64,000 bases of DNA from Spiroplasma helicoides (GTDB lineage: Bacteria > Bacillota_I > Bacilli_A > Mycoplasmatales > Mycoplasmataceae): contig NZ_CP017015.1 of assembly GCF_001715535.1 (NCBI RefSeq), positions 124,001 through 188,000 of the forward strand. The letters run 5' to 3'. The translations under genes and the position numbers were made by a program. The notes under the pieces are model-generated. The model had not been told where the DNA came from, did no database searches, and saw only the letters and a program-made list of their open reading frames with translations. Shown here in pieces: positions 51,090 through 61,492 of this stretch (position 1 is its first letter; each line of letters starts with the position of its first letter).

Positions 51090-51112
51090 AAAAGTGCCTA
51101 GGCACTTTTTTT
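51088..51112 (+). terminator. Terminator after leuS
   Basis: Perfect palindrome AAAAGTGCC-TA-GGCACTTTT with T run. Confidence 0.88.
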
Positions 51113-51157: not shown

Positions 51158-51166
51158 TGTTATAAT
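51158..51166 (+). promoter_or_regulatory. Promoter of the helicase-AAA-radical SAM operon
   Basis: TGT-TATAAT (extended -10), 23 nt before the ATG at 51190, with TAGGAGAT as SD. No other clear promoter is seen until 60825. Confidence 0.5.
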
Positions 51167-51189: not shown

Positions 51190-54100
51190 ATGGGCAAAGT
51201 AATCGAAAATGATGGGACAAAAGAACTTTTTTTAGACTTTTCTTATTTAAGAAATGTTCTTTTTGTTGATAAACTTAGTCAATTAGATCTTGTAATCCAA
51301 AGATTAAATATAGAAGGTATACAAAGCTATAATGATTTTGATCAATTTTTAAGAAACTCGATGATAAAACAAGCTTTTATTTGTTTGGTAGATGATAAAA
51401 CTAGAAAAATAATTAATAAAAGTGGTGGCAGCAAAGTTTATGATGCAATTATAAGAATTGAGTTAGATACCATAAGTCAATCAAAAATGCCCAAAAGTAC
51501 AAGCTTGGGATTTTTTGTGAATATAGATCCTGAGTATCCAGCTTTAACTGTTGCTTCAATTTTTCAAACTAGATTAAAATTATCGCCACAAGAATTTGAA
51601 ACTACCATTAAAGAAGTACCGCTGCAAATTATAAAGTTCAATAAGCAAATACCAGTTGATGAGTTATTAAGAAGAAATATAATCAACTCTTCTACAATAT
51701 CTAATATCAATAAAATTACCTCTACTTTTGAGCAAGAAAAAAATCGCTGATTAAAGTATTTGGACTTTATGAGTGATCTTTTAGTTGTCCAAAGAAAAAA
51801 CTCACTACCATATCTAGGAACTGATCTGGCAGAAGTTCTAAAAATTGACAAAAAAGATCTAGATGATGAAATAAAAGATAAAACCATAAAAGAACTTAGA
51901 AATAAAACATTTGCATATTTTGATTTAGGTCATGAAAGTTTTTTAAAAAGCAAAGACATTAAATACGATGTTGTAAATGTAATAGTTTTGGATATTTTAG
52001 TTGATTATGAAAATAAGTTAGAAAAAATAAAAAAAACAAGTGAGCTTGCTCTAATTCCTTTTAAGGCTAACAAGCTTTTTGTAAATAATTATGTTTTACA
52101 AAAAAATTTTAAAACTATTTTTGATTTTGATTTTGAAAAAAATCAAGAGAATATGTTTTCTGTAAATCTATCATATCTTTTAGGAACATATGGTGAACCA
52201 AAACCCCTTATTGATTATTGAAAAAAGAAAAAAGAGATTATTTTAGGGGCAAAAAAAGAGTTTGAAATGTTTGAAAAAAAATATTTTGAAGAAATGACAG
52301 ACTGAAAAGTTCATAAAGTAATTTATGAAATAGAAGAAGAGTTTGATGAAAATTTATTTAAAACTAAAAATAATTATGACACACTAAACTCGGGTTACAT
52401 TGCTTTTGTTGGAATAGGTGAAGATGTTCTAATTGATAGAAGTAGACAAACTTTAAAAAGAATATCTGAAGGTAATACAAAAAATCCTTATTTAACAAAT
52501 TATTTATTTAATACAAAACTTATTGAATTATCTGAATCATCAAATGAAATTGATTTAGAAGATAGTGATTTTTATTTTGCTTTGAACAGTGAACAAAAAA
52601 GCGCTGTAAAAAAAGCATTGAACTCAAAAGATATTTTTTTATTACAAGGTCCACCTGGTACTGGTAAAACTCAGGTTATTTGTGAGCTGATATATCAGTT
52701 AGCTAAATTAAACAGAAAAGTTTTGATATCAAGTCAAAATCATGAAGCCATCAAAAACGTGGTTGACAGATTACCATATGAACCAAATATAAATAGAATA
52801 AGATTAACAAATCAACTGAATCATAAATCAAGAAGTGCAAACAACTTTACACCAGAAAGAGTTGTTTACAATTATTATAAATCAATTACTAAATCAATAT
52901 TTGATGATTTATCAGTTGGTAAAAATAATGTAGAAGATTTTAAAATCATTGAAAATAAATTAGAAAAACTGCTATTAAGTAGCAAAGGATATCATCAAAA
53001 TAGTACTCAAATGAGAGAGATACAAAAACAAATTGATGAAATAAATGAAAAAATAAAAATAATAAAAACAGAAGAAATAAAAAGTATACATAATAAAACT
53101 TATTTGAAAGAAGAAATTTTTAATATAGATAATCTTATTGAAGTAATAAGCAATTTAGATTTTAAAATATCTATAAACATATCTGAGGAGATAGAAAAAT
53201 TATATAAAAACGAAATTAGTTTTAGTATAGAAGATTTTATTTTGAAGTACATAGATCATGAAATAAATGAAATAAATATATTTAACAAATTAAAATTGGT
53301 TTGTGAAGAGACAATTTTTAAAAATGAATTTTTCATTGACATACAAAAAATAAAAAATAACATTATAAATTATAAAAGAGAAGCTGAGTTTGAACTTGCA
53401 GATAAAGAAGAGCAACGATTAGAAGAGTTTGAAAAATTTTTACTAAAAGATACTATGTGTTTAGCACTTGTTAAAATTTTTGCAAGGTTTAGATCAGAAT
53501 TAGAAAATCTAAAACTAGATTTAGAATTAAGTTTAAAAAAAATAAACGCAAGTGAAGACAATGAAATGCAACTTAACTCTTTGGAAGTACACAAAAATGA
53601 TTTATTATTAACAAGACAAAAACTTTCTGAACTAGCTGGTGGTAATAGCAATGAACTAAGAGATTTAATAAAATTTGCTAACTCAAAATTTAATTTAAAT
53701 TTAGGAATAACTGATGTTGATTTGGAACAACAAGTAACACAACAACTAAATGATTATAAAAATAAATTAGAAAAAAGTTTAAAAAGAACTAAAGAGTTAA
53801 AAGATTTTTTTAATCTAGTTTCTAGCTATGCAAAAAATAATTACGGAATAATCGATAAATGAGATGAAGAATTGGCTACACAAGATTTTTCAAGCCAGTT
53901 AATACAAGAAACTCGTAGATACTCATCATCTATAATAAATAACTTGGTTAATGTCTATGCAATGACTTTAACTTCAACTAATCTTTTTAGATTTAATAAA
54001 GATTTACAAGCAAAAAAAATGGGTCTTGAAGAAATAAATTTAAGAACTTTAGATGTTGATGTTGTAATTATTGATGAAGCTTCAAAAGCAACGCTTTTAG

Positions 54101-55038
54101 AAATTCTTATGCCATTAGTTTATGGAAAAACATTAGTGCTAGTAGGGGATTACAGGCAGTTACCACCAATTTTAAAATTACAACCAGAAGATGTAGAGAT
54201 AGTTAATAGAGAGTTGAAAAAAGAATATAGCTATCAAGAATTATTTGAACTATTAGATCAATCAGCATTTAAAAATTTCATTGGGGCCAGAAATAGTTCG
54301 ATAACAACCATGCTAAAAACTCAGTATAGAAGTCATCAACAAATCATGGAAGTGGTAAATAAGTTTTATGATAATGAATTAAAAGTTGATCAACAAGTAA
54401 GTGAACATAAAAGGCATGATTTAGTTATAACTTCAAAAACAGGCGCTGAGATTGTAAGTCAAAAGAGTTCTGTTTACTGAATTGATTCGACATACGGAAC
54501 AAACGGCGAAGTTATTTTTGAAAGCAGTGAAGACTACTCAACAAGCTTATTTAATGAGTTAGAAATTAAATTAACAGTTGAGTTTTTGAAAAGACTAGAT
54601 GTTTCGCTCGATAGTAAAACTTACAAAAGAAAACCATCAGTTGCTGTAATTAGTTTTTATAATTTACATGTAAGAAAACTATTTATCGAAATTAGAAAAC
54701 AAAAGTTCAAAAACTTTTCATTAGTTATAAATACTGTGGATGATTTTCAAGGTAAAGAAGCTGACTATGTAATTGTAAATATGGTAAGAAACCCAGAAAG
54801 ATTATCACAAACTAGTGGAAGAGATTTTCTAAAAAAATACGAAAGAATAAATGTTGCATACAGTAGAGCTAGAGAATTACTAGTTATTATCGGAGCTAGC
54901 AGAGCCGTTAATGATATAAGAGTTCAGATACCAACAGTTGAAGATCCGAATATATCAAATACATACGATGTATATGCAGATATAATAGCAAAAATTAATT
55001 TCGACGGTGGTTATTTAACAACCAAAGATTTATTATAG
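51190..55038 (+). CDS. UPF1/Dna2-like SF1 helicase, operon gene 1
   Basis: The 1282 residues form an N-terminal region of about 450 residues without recognised motifs, then a superfamily 1B helicase: Walker A GPPGTGKT (487-494), Walker B VIIDEAS (Asp962), GDYRQLPP, TQYRSH, DDFQGKEADYVIV and VAYSRAREL. Between motifs I and II lies a ~450-residue insert, largely coiled coil and rich in Lys, Glu and Leu. The frame crosses few TGA codons. It probably unwinds or remodels DNA or RNA. The stop TAG abuts the SD of gene 2, showing co-translation. Confidence 0.85.
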
Positions 55039-55047
55039 GAGGTAATT

Positions 55048-57318
55048 ATGATTTTTGACAAGATAGAGATAATGTATAATAAATATTCATTACCTATTAA
55101 AATTAAATACTCAGAATCTAGAAAACCTACATTTGTAGAGTTTTTGATATTGTCAATTATTTATGATTATCCAAGAAAAAACTTAAGCTTAAAACAAATA
55201 TTAAATGATGATTTTAAAATATATAACATTGATTTATTTGAGAGAGCATTAAAAGATTTAATTGCATACAAGGTTATTGAATTAAATAAAACTACTGCCG
55301 GTTGAAGTACTTTGGGAATAGATTTAGAAATAGAAAAAATTGAACTTAATCAAAAAGTTAAAGAACAATTTATAAATGAAGAATATATAATATCACAGTA
55401 TGATAAAACACTTGATGTTAAATGAGTTTATGATCCTATTGAAGATTCTTTTGATATTGTAAAAGATGTTGAGTGATCAAGAAGAGTTCAAGGGGTAAAA
55501 CTAACAAATAAAATTAAAGAAACTAGTATTAGCCAAAACTTTTATATAAAAGATTTAATTAAGAAAAATGTTAATGAATTTATTGAGTTAAAAAAAGAAA
55601 TTTTTGGTGATAATGCAAAATTTTCTAATGTTACTTTAGCTAATGGAATTGATTTAGCTGATCATAAAATTGCACAAGAACTTACCGAATCATTACCTTG
55701 TGCGAATGAAGTTAGTATAGAGTTATTTGATAATGATGCTTTTATTATAAATACAGAAAATGAAAAACTAAAAATATTTTTAAAAACACAAAAAGATTTA
55801 GCAAAAAATATTGTTAGAGATATTTTAAAAAGTTATTCAGACAAAATCAAAGATCGATTTTTTGCTAAAAAAGACTTTGAAAATAAAAAAAATTTTTTAA
55901 ATGAACCAGATATTTTATCTAATTTAATTGTAAAGTCTACTTGAAATCTGTTACTTATTAATGGAAGAGATGTCTTATCTCCTGATAAAGTTTTATCAAA
56001 TAAATCACTTATAAATAGTTGCCAAATAATAGTATTTTATAATTCTAAATCTAACAATAAAACAATAGAATATCTTGGAGATAAAATTGTAGTGTATGTG
56101 GATAGTAGCAGAGAAGCTCTATTAAATGATAATACTTTAATTTATATCGATTCAGAAAATAAAGTTAATGGATTTGCACTTGTAGAAAAAAAACTAGAGT
56201 CTGTTGGGGCAACTATACCAGTTGTCTATTCTTACGATCAAAATCCAAAATTAAATTTGGCAAAAGTATTTGAAGATAACCTAGAAAGACTTTTATTAGA
56301 TTATGAAGAAGAGCTGAAAAACGAAAATTTAGATGTATCAACTATGATGTTTTTATTTTTAAAAAGAGTAGGGCTACAACAAAAACTAACTGACATAATT
56401 AAAAAACATTTACAAAAAGATTTTTATGCTGGAAATAATTATAAAAAGTTAACAGAATACTTTGCAAGTAAAGAAAATGATGAAGCATATTATTTTATAG
56501 AGAATTGTTTATCTGAAATAATTATAACTATGTCTAAAGATATTAAAGACGATCAAATATTACACGTTTTAAATTTATATAATTTTAAAAATCAAAAGAA
56601 TCTTTTTAAAGTTTTAGAGAATATACATTTAGATAAAGAAGAAAATATGTTGTTTTTAATATCTGATATTCTTGATAAAAATAACGTAGACTGATGAAAA
56701 AATAATACCAGAAATTGCTTAGTTACTTTATTGGGATATGCAAATAAATATATGACTAGGGAACTATTTGATATAAATAAATATCAATCTAAAACCTGAG
56801 CTTTGCATGCAGCAACCTTAAATATGATATGCACAATTAAGAAAAAAGTGTTTGAAAAAAATTTTACTTCTGTAGAAAAACATTACAAAAATATGTTGAA
56901 TGGTGTTGTAGATCTTATGAGAAGTAATGTTAAAATAAATAATCAAAAAGATTATTTGATTAAAGTTGCAGAAAATTTAAAGGATTTGTATAAAGATTTT
57001 TATAAATATAAAAGTCAGGAGCTAACAGAACTTGATTCAGATTTAATAAGCTATAAAGTTCAAGTTGAATCTGCTAATTTTATTAGCAGATTGGAAAATA
57101 AAATAGATATGTTGATTTCACCAGAAGCTCAAAAATTTCCTATTGAAGTAAAAGTTGAATGAGCTAAACATATCGAAAATAAAATAAAAGAAGTAGATAA
57201 AATATTTAAAAATGATGAATCAATATTATATGAAGCTTTAAATTTAGTTTTTGGTGAAAAAAAAGAATTTGATGTAAGATTTTTAGAAAATTATAAAAAA
57301 AGATTTGGAGGAATTTAA
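55048..57318 (+). CDS. 756-aa protein of unknown function with a possible winged helix, operon gene 2
   Basis: GGAGG (55039-55043) precedes the ATG; the stop TAA is immediately followed by the next ATG. Residues about 25-85 (FVEFLILSIIYDYPRKNLSLK...) look like a winged helix-turn-helix. The middle (about 290-400) is alpha/beta with hydrophobic strands (CQIIVFYNSKS, YLGDKIVVYVDS). The C-terminal ~350 residues are helical, ending in charged helices. There are no enzyme motifs I can name, no signal and no membrane segment. Being locked between the helicase and the coiled-coil protein argues for a shared complex. Confidence 0.75.
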
Positions 57319-58404
57319 ATGAGCTTAACAGTTCAACAAATGATTTTAAATAGTAAAAAGCTACACGAACTACTTAAAAAAGATATAGATTCAATCATGA
57401 AGTTTATTCAAGAATTAGTTGATCAATGTAAAGACATCGACAATGCCGGTTTTTTTACAGAAAAATTAAAGTCATTATTAAAGAACTCTAAATTTTTACT
57501 TGAAGAATTAGAAACCAAAGATAATATTCTTTTACAAGAAACTATCGATGAAAATATTTTGTTAGAAAATTATAATGTTGCACAACAATTTGCAATAAAA
57601 AAACGTAAACAATTAGCTGACTTAAGAGCAGAACTTTATGTTATAAAAGCAGAGGTTGTAAAAAAAGAGCAAAATGAAATAATGAAAGCATTTGAAAATA
57701 CTAATAAAAGTTTTGAGCAAGTTAAACACGAATTAATTAATAAGCAAAAAAACTTAGATGATAAAGTTTTGGTAAAAAATTATTTAGAACAACACGAAGC
57801 AAGTTTGGTAAACAAAAGTTTACCAGAAATTTACAATTTAATAAATGTAAATGTTTTTAAAGTTGATAATCAATATGAACTAATAGCAAGGGAAATGATA
57901 AAAGAAGTAACTGAAAGTTGTGGCAATGATCAAGATGTTGTTGATGAAATTACACAAAGAGCTAAAGCATTTATAAATAAAAAAAATGAAAATGAACTAA
58001 TGAAAAACGCCAAGGAATTTATTTCAAGTTCATCTGAACTAATTGAAAATGAATTAATAAGAAGAGAAAATGTCATAAAAATTGTGAAAGCAATAAGAGA
58101 AGTTGGATACATTGTAAAAGAAGATAACATAAGAAAATTAAAAGAAAAAAATATTATAATGATACATGGAGAAAAAATAACCGGAGAAACAGCAGACTTT
58201 GCAGTTAATTTAGATGGAAGTTTCATTTACAATTATGAAGGTTTTGAAAATCATGATCATGATGCTGATGTAAATGAGTTTATTGATAAACTTAGAAGCC
58301 TTGGCATTAATACAACTGAGGCTATCAAAAAACAATATAGAGAGCCAAAGTTTGTGGCAAATAAAAGTAAGCTAATTAGTAAAAATAAAAACTCAGGGAA
58401 GTAG
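57319..58404 (+). CDS. 361-aa coiled-coil protein, operon gene 3
   Basis: The ATG directly follows the stop of gene 2 (TAAATG), with GGAGG inside gene 2 as SD. Residues about 10-260 are almost all helical and rich in Glu, Lys and Asn. A compact C-terminal domain (about 275-350) has MIHGEKITGETADFAVNLDG and the His/Asp-rich NHDHDADVNEF. That domain looks conserved and could bind metal, but I cannot name it. Likely an adaptor linking the AAA protein or helicase. Confidence 0.75.
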   Translation: MSLTVQQMILNSKKLHELLKKDIDSIMKFIQELVDQCKDIDNAGFFTEKLKSLLKNSKFLLEELETKDNILLQETIDENILLENYNVAQQFAIKKRKQLADLRAELYVIKAEVVKKEQNEIMKAFENTNKSFEQVKHELINKQKNLDDKVLVKNYLEQHEASLVNKSLPEIYNLINVNVFKVDNQYELIAREMIKEVTESCGNDQDVVDEITQRAKAFINKKNENELMKNAKEFISSSSELIENELIRRENVIKIVKAIREVGYIVKEDNIRKLKEKNIIMIHGEKITGETADFAVNLDGSFIYNYEGFENHDHDADVNEFIDKLRSLGINTTEAIKKQYREPKFVANKSKLISKNKNSGK

Positions 58405-58412
58405 GTTAAAGT

Positions 58413-60236
58413 ATGAGTGTAAAAAGAGAGTTAAATCAGTTAAAAAACTTGATAGGGATTAAAAAATCAATTATCTTAGAAGGTAATGTTGATGATGTAT
58501 ATGAATTAAATGGAAAGTATGTAAATATTCAAGAATATATAATGGAGTTATTTAGTTCCAAAAAATATACAGATAGATTTCTATATGATAGAAATTCAGG
58601 TATAAGAGGAAGCAAACTAAGTAACCTAATCTTAACAAGTGAAGCAAACAATGCAGAAGGGGAAAGTGCAGCATCAGAGTTTGAAGAACTTTTTAATAAC
58701 TCTGGAAGTACAGATGCACAAGAGAAACAAGATACAAACAATATAAAAAATCCTTTACAGTTTTTTTCTGTCCTAAATAAAAACTTAAATAGGGCAGATA
58801 ATAAAAAAATGGGATTTGTTGCAGACTATACAGATTATTTTTTTAGTGATCAATCTTTAGACCAAGACGACAGAGCAGTCTTAACTGAATTTTCAAAAAC
58901 TTTGAAAGAATCTGAGTTTATAATTTCAAAAGTAGATGAATTAAGTAATTGTGTAATTTTTATTACTAAAAAAATTAACCAGCTTCCACCAAGTCTTTAT
59001 TTAAATAATCCAGAAATATTGATTTTATCATTGCCAAAACCAAATAGAGATGAAAGACACAATTTTTTAGCTTCTGTAAAATCTAGAATACAAGTTACAG
59101 ATATAAGCACAGAATTTGATAATATAGTTGACGCAACAGAAGGTTGAACCATTAAAGAACTGTCTCACTTTGTAAAATTTTCATGTAATTTTAATCAGCC
59201 TATACCTTTTAATAAAATGTTTAACATATATAATTTTGGTGAAAAAAGTTCACCATGAGAAGATCTTAGTTATGAAAAAATGTTGAAACTAAAAGATGAG
59301 TTAAGCAAAAGGGTTATTGGACAAGAAGATGCAGTTGATAAAGTTGCAAAAGTTATTTATAAAGCTTTCACAGGTTTAACTGGAATAACTTATTCTGCAA
59401 AAAGAACCAAACCAAAAGGAACTTTATTTTTTGTTGGACCAACAGGAACCGGAAAAACTGAGTTGGCAAAAGCTATTGCACAATTTATCTTTAATGATGA
59501 AGCTAATTTAATTAGATTTGACATGTCTGAATATGGACAAGACAACTCAGATCAAAAACTAATTGGAGCACCTCCAGGTTATGTTGGTTTTGAAGGTGGA
59601 GGACAACTAACAAATTCTGTTAAAGAAAAACCTTTCTCTGTTATTTTATTTGATGAAATTGAAAAAGCACATCCTAAAATGTTTGATAAGTTTTTACAAA
59701 TCTTGGAAGATGGTAGATTAACAGACAACACCGGTCAAACTGTAAGCTTTAGTGAAACATTTATAATATTTACTTCTAATATAGGAGCATCTGAAGTAGT
59801 TCCTAGTGCAAATAAAGAAGACGTGTATAATGAATTTGTAAAAAGAGTACAAAATCACTTTACTTTTGAACTAAATAGACCTGAATTGTTAGGAAGATTC
59901 GGAAACAATATCATTCCTTTTAACTTTATTAAAGATAAAAGTTTAAAAGCTAAAATTGTTAAACAAAAAGTTAGACCTATACAAATAGCAATTTACGAAA
60001 AATATAAAGCTGAACTTCATATTGATTTGCAAGACGAAAGTATTTTAGATAATTTATTAAAAGATGCGGATGAAAGACGTGGTGGAAGAGATGTTTTAAA
60101 CTCATTGGAAACTAATTTAGTAGATCCTTTATCAGAGTTTATTTTTGAAAATCTTCATAAACTTAAAGCTGGTACTAAAATCTTTGCAAAATCTAATACC
60201 GAAAAAAGAAAGTTAGATTTTTTAATAAATGGCTAA
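58413..60236 (+). CDS. Double-AAA ATPase with a Clp-D2 second domain, operon gene 4
   Basis: The protein has 607 residues. Residues 1-285 resemble a classical AAA domain that has lost its P-loop: there is a sensor-1-like strand (CVIFITKKINQLPPSL) and the following LSLPKPNRDER, but no Walker A. Residues about 290-607 are a complete ClpB/ClpC D2 domain: Walker A GPTGTGKT (342-349), Walker B ILFDEIEKAHP (Asp414), sensor 1 FTSNIGA, arginine finger RPELLGRFGN, sensor 2 RRGGRD. No N-domain or ClpP-docking tripeptide is evident. An unfoldase or remodelling motor is likely. Its end overlaps gene 5 by 8 nt. Confidence 0.88.
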
Positions 60237-60825
60237 CATAAACGTTGGTAGATTCTTGATGAATAGTGAAATTGAAGGGCCGGGTACAAGGTTTGTTGTT
60301 TGATTACAAGGTTGTACAATAGGTTGTAAAAGCTGTTGTAATCAAGAATTAATTCCAATGGTTCCAAAGTTTTTAATGCCAGTCAGTTTTTTGTTTGAAA
60401 AAATTAAAGAAGCAAAACAAAAATACAATATAGAAGGAATTACTATATTAGGGGGTGAACCCTTCATTCAACCCGATGGTTTAGAAGAGCTGATTGATCT
60501 TTGTTATGAAAATGATTTAACTATAATTTGTTTTACGGGATATATTTATGAAAATTTAAAAGACGAATATTCTAATATACTTAAAAAAATTGATATTTTA
60601 ATTGATGGCCCTTTTATTGCAAATCAATTAGATATAAAAAGAAGACTAATTGGAAGTAAGAATCAAAGGGTAATTAAAATTACTGATAAATATAAGGATT
60701 GCGACTACTTTGAACAACCACATTCTCAATTTGAAATACAATTGTTTAAAGATAGAGTTATAATAAACGGTGATGGTGTAGCCATCGATAATGAGCACGG
60801 ACAGGTTTGTTTTAAAATAAAATAA
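60229..60825 (+). CDS. Radical-SAM activating enzyme, NrdG-like, operon gene 5
   Basis: This 198-residue protein has the CX3CX2C [4Fe-4S] motif (Cys29, Cys33, Cys36) in the order GCTIGCKSC, followed by GITILGGEPFIQPDG, the usual SAM-binding GGEP region. The size and layout fit glycyl-radical activases such as NrdG or PflA. No glycyl-radical enzyme gene is in the window. The ATG overlaps the end of gene 4 (ATGGCTAA). It may modify a partner protein of this operon; equally it may have an unrelated NrdG role. Confidence 0.85.
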
Positions 60826-60844: not shown

Positions 60845-61492
60845 ATGAGCAATACTTATGAATATATTAAAAATAGAAGATCTGCTAAACGATATCAAAC
60901 TGATTTTGAATTATCTGAAAAACAAATTGAAGAAATTTTAGAGGGTATTAGATATTCTCCATCATCATTTGGTATGGAACCTTATAGAGTATATTTCATA
61001 CAAAATCATGAAATTAGAGAAGAACTATGACCTGAATGATGAAATCAACCAGCCGTGAAAGAGTGCAGTGGTTTAATTATATGAACAACATTCAAAGAAA
61101 AATATATGAAAAGCACTGTAATTGATAAACAAATTACAAATATTACAGATCCTCAAAGCGATAAAGCCGAAGCATATATTAAAAATGGGATTGAATCATT
61201 TTTAAAATCTCAAAATACTGATTTTGATAATTGAACAGCACGACAAGTTTATATTTCAATGGGTGTCACTCTAATAATGGCAAAAGAAATGGGACTAGAT
61301 TGTTGTCCAGCAGAAGGTTTTAAAAGAAAAGAGACAGATGATATTCTTGCAAAACATGGAATAATAAATCCAGAAGAAGAACACACTACTTTGGGAATGT
61401 TTATTGGTAAAATCGATACAACAAAACAAAATCACTACTCATACACTAGATACAAAAGACCCAAAGAAGAAGTATATAAAATTATTAAGTAA
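60845..61492 (+). CDS. Nitroreductase-family FMN oxidoreductase
   Basis: The 215-residue protein has the family start (YIKNRRSAKRYQTDFELSEKQ) and FMN-binding pieces (RYSPSSFGMEPYRVY, EMGLDCCPAEGF). NfsB-like enzymes reduce quinones or nitro compounds with NAD(P)H. It starts 19 nt after gene 5 with AGAGGAA as SD, so it could belong to the same transcript, ended by the terminator at 61491. Its function is probably independent. TGA codons at 61027-61039 read as Trp. Confidence 0.9.

Follow-up and report, generated by a model that had tools for sequence, protein, structure and literature searches.

The stretch of DNA analyzed here (the window) comprises 64,000 nucleotides of Spiroplasma helicoides (contig NZ_CP017015.1, positions 124,001 to 188,000). 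The host genome is a single contig of 1.33 Mb, reads TGA as tryptophan and has seven MreB-family genes. Positions 51190-60825 of the window hold five open reading frames, all on the forward strand, and ORF reading with TGA as tryptophan confirmed each of them. Gene 1 (51190..55038) encodes a 1282 aa SF1B helicase of the UPF1/SMUBP-2/DNA2-like kind. Gene 2 (55048..57318) encodes a 756 aa protein with a winged-helix-like N-terminal region, an alpha/beta middle and a helical-repeat C-terminus. Gene 3 (57319..58404) encodes 361 aa that form coiled-coil helical hairpins followed by a C-terminal alpha/beta domain. Gene 4 (58413..60236) encodes a 607 aa AAA protein whose first AAA domain is degenerate and whose ClpB-type D2 is intact. 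The product of gene 5 (60229..60825; 198 aa) belongs to the NrdG/PFL-activating-enzyme type of radical-SAM proteins. The gaps from gene 1 to gene 4 are 9, 0, and 8 nt, genes 4 and 5 overlap by 8 nt, and the spacing is similarly short in most relatives. The original prediction described exactly these five tightly spaced genes within 9.6 kb.

What marks the borders of this operon? A perfect palindrome, AAAAGTGCCTAGGCACTTTT, with a T run after it lies at 51090..51109 of the forward strand. It likely ends the upstream leuS gene, setting leuS apart from the five-gene operon. It does not appear in the output of the consensus scan and was read by eye in the sequence. A promoter-like element had been predicted in front of gene 1, and this holds only in part. 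A possible -10 element, TATAAT (51161..51166, forward strand), and a GGAG box before the ATG of gene 1 are both present by direct reading. However, consensus promoter matches in the region are at chance level (75 vs. 67 +/- 8). At the other end, no obvious terminator was seen in the 19 nt that separate gene 5 from the next gene, so the operon transcript may extend past gene 5. The next gene is a nitroreductase-like ORF (60845-61492) with its own ribosome-binding site. This ORF adjoins the operon in several relatives too and may share its transcript.

It is clear that the five genes are one unit, as had been proposed, and the recurrence of their order far exceeds chance. Searching with gene 3 gave a match in each of the other 19 genus genomes and in 5 of the 17 other genomes of the family. 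The order from gene 1 to gene 5 and the tight spacing are kept in every locus retrieved, one copy in the genus being damaged, and the genes around the operon vary between genera. In a class-wide sample there are gene 3 homologues in six distant Bacilli. Five of these have genes 1, 4, and 5 in the expected places with a gene-2-sized ORF between, and the sixth (L078) lacks genes 1 and 2. A sample of the phylum added two genomes with all five genes, one of them a TGA-recoding relative from the same order. A weak match to gene 3 in G112 (L082) has no operon there.

The original prediction had suggested a search of gene neighborhoods outside the mollicutes, and this finds the same five genes together in distant bacteria and on plasmids. 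Scanning 84,980 species genomes with one short peptide pattern gave at least 43 loci, which is a lower bound. Of the 43, 37 have the five genes in order, five break off at the end of a contig, and the last, the L078 locus, is a remnant. These loci come from Bacilli, Clostridia, Helicobacteraceae, Gamma- and Betaproteobacteria, and one Lentisphaerae MAG. Across 49 complete loci the pairwise divergence of the five proteins is correlated (r 0.89-0.98). It is this parallel divergence, together with the fixed order, that makes the five genes a unit. Could L078/L111 be an exception? Genes 1 and 2 are absent there beside an ABC transporter and gene 3 is shortened, which is the picture of a deletion remnant or an assembly join. 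E. coli genomes gave ClpB likeness only, and the operon was not found in the phage records searched. One contig classed as viral in IMG/VR holds all five genes (L150:2243-12395); it is either misclassified or a mobile element.

The assignment of gene 1 as an SF1 helicase is borne out by matches to the AAA_11 and AAA_12 domains and by structural matches to SMUBP-2, Sen1, DNA2, and UPF1. An insertion of about 470 aa separates Walker A (aa 487) from the DEAS of Walker B (aa 962). The helicase motifs are intact in 49 of 49 copies.

Gene 2 combines a shared body with exchanged ends. Its N-terminal part is common to Spiroplasma, Bacilli/Clostridia, and proteobacteria (profile comparison probabilities of 97%, 97%, and 93.5%), and by this measure gene 2 is one family across the three groups. 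The proteobacterial proteins end in a PIN_4 domain (E down to 7e-24), with the acidic PIN residues D, E, D, and D invariant in 15 copies. Those of Bacilli/Clostridia end in a DUF4145-like, HEPN-type domain with an invariant R..RN...H (RNxxxH). The Rx4-6H active-site motif of HEPN domains is therefore present, its R and H being invariant in 17 aligned copies. The motif was found in 24 gene 2 copies of the 49-locus set and also in the TGA-recoding relative that belongs to the same order as the window's organism. A constant body with an exchanged toxic RNase end is typical of conflict systems (polymorphic effector systems).

What has happened to this end in Spiroplasma? Pfam finds no nuclease domain in the window's gene 2 or in 12 relatives, and neither Pfam nor profile alignment finds PIN or HEPN in the window's copy. 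The predicted structure (mean pLDDT 88) finishes in helical repeats instead. With no recognizable nuclease in gene 2, the effector RNase appears to be gone from the window's genus. The winged helix proposed earlier for gene 2 is consistent with the predicted structure. Foldseek gave no match below 0.001 for gene 2 or gene 3. A middling VIA-align match of gene 2 aa 282-402 to Tdp1 (Z 5.7, rmsd 3.6, 98 aligned) was not used as evidence, and the remaining VIA-align matches of genes 2 and 3 were otherwise just common helical arrangements that were likewise set aside. Directly after gene 5, some Bacilli/Clostridia loci have an RNase III-like ORF (PF00636) that is a possible accessory effector (L123:12347-12844, L124:12350-12856, L125:12353-12850, and L108:10105-10614).

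Gene 3 had been called a coiled coil, and it does consist of long, coiled-coil helices plus a small C-terminal alpha/beta domain. That domain carries a conserved DGxxxY...GxxC/HxxD motif, in which the Cys of other bacteria is His in the window's family. A likeness of the C-terminus to DUF2997 is confined to 3 of 40 members (best E 0.014). Middling VIA-align matches of aa 249-341 to the spermine synthase N-domain and to KA1 (Z 8.3 and 7.6) were not used as evidence. Gene 3 was also considered as a glycyl-radical target. However, the candidate glycine at position 311 is Asn in the window's copy, and the remaining glycines do not have a glycyl-radical context.

Gene 4 was described as a double AAA protein, and half of this description stands. 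The second domain, a D2 of the ClpB type, is intact: Walker A lies at aa 342, a DEIEK motif is present, and aa 287-597 align with ClpB D2. However, the first AAA domain (aa 1-285) is degenerate, with Walker A missing in 49 of 49 copies. Gene 4 thus can have only a single working ATPase domain, the second.

The radical-SAM activase type of gene 5 is likewise supported. It matches Fer4_12, NrdG, and PFL-AE, its best structures are those of PFL-AE, it retains CxxxCxxC (aa 29-36) in 49 of 49 copies, and it also has GGEP and DGPF motifs. The idea that it installs a radical on a classical glycyl-radical partner is not supported. None of the five operon proteins has a glycyl-radical domain. Moreover, 8 of the 20 genus genomes have no Gly_radical match, although all eight bear the operon (with gene 5 split in G014). 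The PFL-like gene of the window's genome adjoins a separate radical-SAM gene. Gene 5 therefore probably serves no classical glycyl-radical partner as its activase.

Genes 4 and 5 are also paired in other helicase loci. On a plasmid of Aristaeella lactis (L101:1137-18999) the locus that holds their homologs also encodes a phosphatase, an FHA protein, serine/threonine kinases, and a helicase with DUF4011, and this may be a related phospho-regulated system. As a side observation, on a plasmid of Rhizobium leguminosarum (L146:13986-24082) the gene 4 and 5 homologs precede genes for a helicase of 2086 aa and a gene-3-like protein of 452 aa (E 9e-4), which looks like a second architecture of the same kit.

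The complete set of five genes is found on five kinds of plasmid, namely those of Moellerella, Photobacterium, Acinetobacter, Polaromonas, and Leisingera. Neighbors on these plasmids (conjugative or other) include ArdA, DarT, an HsdR-like gene, TIR, and integrases. A survey of flanking genes, made without a matched control, recorded type IV restriction enzymes, Csx1/Csm6, CARF-HEPN proteins, AbiEi, and similar genes. Viperin (pVip) models are matched by four of the flanking genes surveyed. Two radical-SAM genes adjoin the five-gene operon on a plasmid of Photobacterium toruni (L097:3410-5478).

The setting in the window and its relatives in the genus is a different one, with the operon sitting among leuS, folD, and fhs. 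Within the genus, distances between operon proteins follow those of LeuS, FolD, and Fhs (r 0.77-0.94). The dN/dS of the operon genes is about 0.02-0.34, which is similar to or somewhat above that of leuS and folD. Therefore, the operon has been inherited vertically for a long time under purifying selection. Among the five, gene 2 has diverged most rapidly and genes 4 and 5 most slowly. One genus member, G014, has a change of frame in gene 1, stops in genes 1 and 2, and a split gene 5 (L035:3399-12924). Loss of the operon seems to be tolerated at least there, sequencing error being an alternative. In Mesomycoplasma hyorhinis the operon has decayed, and parts of genes 1 and 4 are left (L145:3428-11310).

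What might such a machine do? The swapped toxic ends, the patchy spread, and the plasmid or defense-gene neighbors lead us to regard the operon, on balance, as the Spiroplasma branch of a widespread, unnamed bacterial conflict (defense) system. Phage/plasmid defense and RNA/translation quality control had been the main options proposed before, and the RNase ends on relatives of gene 2 make defense or RNA-directed action the best reading. In the complex that we infer, the UPF1-like helicase of gene 1 would travel along RNA or single-stranded nucleic acid and detect a foreign or stalled feature. The signal would pass to gene 2, whose winged-helix half would dock on the helicase. In most lineages the RNase end of gene 2 (PIN or HEPN) would then cut RNA and stop the infection or kill the cell, which is where an antiviral effect would arise. 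Gene 4 would form a ClpB-like ring assembly with one working ATPase ring, the other being a pseudo-ATPase. Gene 3 may recruit this assembly, which would remodel or unfold a partner and so keep the effector inactive or activate it. By an oxygen-sensitive chemical change, gene 5 would license or switch a partner, for which gene 3, gene 4, and the target RNA are the most likely candidates. In the window's genus the RNase is apparently gone, and the other catalytic parts have been kept under selection and inherited vertically. Probably the machine is now a fixed surveillance function, either a defense that lacks a nuclease of its own or quality control of RNA or translation. A recognized RNase that is lost in an operon that is always present suggests a changed, permanent role in Spiroplasma.

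Two observations do not fit easily with defense. The operon is in every genome of the genus, among housekeeping genes and vertically inherited, which is unusual for a defense system, and the window's gene 2 has no recognizable nuclease. What if the operon is simply a housekeeping apparatus? In this scenario the helicase would strip stalled RNA-protein complexes and the ClpB-like ring would extract proteins, with no antiviral role. Presence in 20 of 20 genus genomes, vertical inheritance, strong purifying selection, and the absence of a nuclease in the lineage are all as this predicts, and a UPF1-like helicase together with an unfoldase resembles surveillance machines. However, the operon is missing from sister genera (12 of the 17 family genomes), has decayed in M. 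hyorhinis, and is damaged in one relative. Elsewhere it is patchy and borne on plasmids with swapped RNases. Quality control as the sole function is thus rather unlikely, but it is a rival to be taken seriously.

Two other scenarios are far less probable. In one, the operon is a radical-enzyme pathway: gene 5 would activate a glycyl-radical partner, which the remaining genes would fold or repair under anaerobiosis. This would account for the closeness of gene 5 to PFL-AE and NrdG. However, such a partner is hard to place given that the operon lacks a glycyl-radical domain, that 8 of 20 genus genomes lack a Gly_radical match, that the PFL-like gene of the genome has its own radical-SAM neighbor, and that Asn replaces the glycine of gene 3, and we consider the scenario very improbable. 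Slightly more improbable still is a toxin-antidote or plasmid-maintenance module that is retained selfishly, with the RNase as toxin and the AAA/radical-SAM part as control. Plasmid locations and RNase ends are what such a module would display, but at 9.6-11 kb with a large helicase the operon greatly exceeds known modules of this type in size. Nor does addiction fit persistence in Spiroplasma chromosomes once the RNase is missing.

Returning to the conflict-system reading, a more specific version can be put forward tentatively, and we hold it to be possible rather than probable. It states that the radical-SAM enzyme and the ClpB-like ring together act as a gate on the UPF1-type helicase and its exchangeable RNase, and that the Spiroplasma branch became a permanent machine after losing the RNase. 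If true, this gating would be a form of bacterial immune control of a kind not described so far. An unfolding ring and radical chemistry would also be new to immunity, and Spiroplasma would offer a natural case of a reduced genome that keeps a conflict system without a recognized nuclease.

How does the operon compare with known systems? PADLOC 2023, Pfam, NCBIfam, and the open papers that were searched gave no name for the five-gene module. PADLOC returned only Mokosh-like helicase models and generic ClpB-like models (PDC-M37B and DolB), and none of its systems covers the operon. Among the helicase models of PADLOC, MkoA and MkoC of Mokosh come closest to gene 1 (MkoA E 2.6e-94). However, genes 2-5 have no Mokosh counterpart, and neither the kinase nor the PLD nuclease of Mokosh was found in the operon. 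Membership in Mokosh, which calls for the MkoA/MkoB kinase pair or an MkoC helicase-PLD fusion, was rejected accordingly, with the helicase part alone matching, no kinase match, and no PLD family assigned. The second AAA domain of gene 4 resembles that of ClpB/ClpA, but gene 4 is not a ClpB disaggregase: it has no ClpN domain, only one P-loop (49 of 49 copies), and a score of 267 against a ClpB cut-off of 1232 bits. Gene 5 is like PFL-activating enzyme and NrdG in size and in its CxxxCxxC, GGEP, and DGPF motifs. Nevertheless, it falls below the NrdG cut-off (93.7 vs. 126.1 bits) and has no glycyl-radical partner in the operon, and it is no prokaryotic viperin either, scoring 24.9 against a curated cut-off of 180 bits. 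Hachiman HamAB is a two-gene system in which a sensor helicase controls an effector nuclease of the DUF1837 type (PMC12278908). By analogy the sensor-helicase/effector-nuclease logic is the same, although HamAB has two genes and another nuclease.

The closest published design, likened by description, appears to be the CnuH/CnuE part of CoCoNuTs. In these systems and their relatives, UPF1-like helicases are paired with elongated wHTH effectors (PMC11090510), and it is this likeness of the helicase and the wHTH-effector half that overturns the earlier view of a wholly unrecognized combination. Gene 1 agrees with the description of Type II/III CnuH in being an SF1 helicase of the UPF1-like kind that carries a large insertion behind Walker A. 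Gene 2, the gene downstream, may correspond to CnuE as described, with a wHTH-like half and an exchangeable nuclease end. Its relatives carry HEPN (with RxxxxH, as in CnuE) or PIN, and the window's copy shows neither. Coiled coils and the operon layout are also alike. In the published model the wHTH effector docks on the helical insertion of the helicase (PMC11090510), and docking of this type would fit genes 1 and 2. However, CoCoNuTs have a McrB-type GTPase (CnuB) and McrC (CnuC), and neither is among the five proteins according to Pfam, PADLOC, and NCBIfam. Therefore, judged by its proteins, the operon is not a CoCoNuT. Instead of the McrB GTPase, the operon has a ClpB-type AAA protein whose D1 is dead, together with a radical-SAM enzyme and a distinct protein with coiled coils. 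The PIN ends of gene 2 and the nuclease-less lineage of the window are further differences. A five-gene module that spans several phyla would extend the helicase and wHTH-nuclease design by a protein-unfolding ring and radical chemistry.
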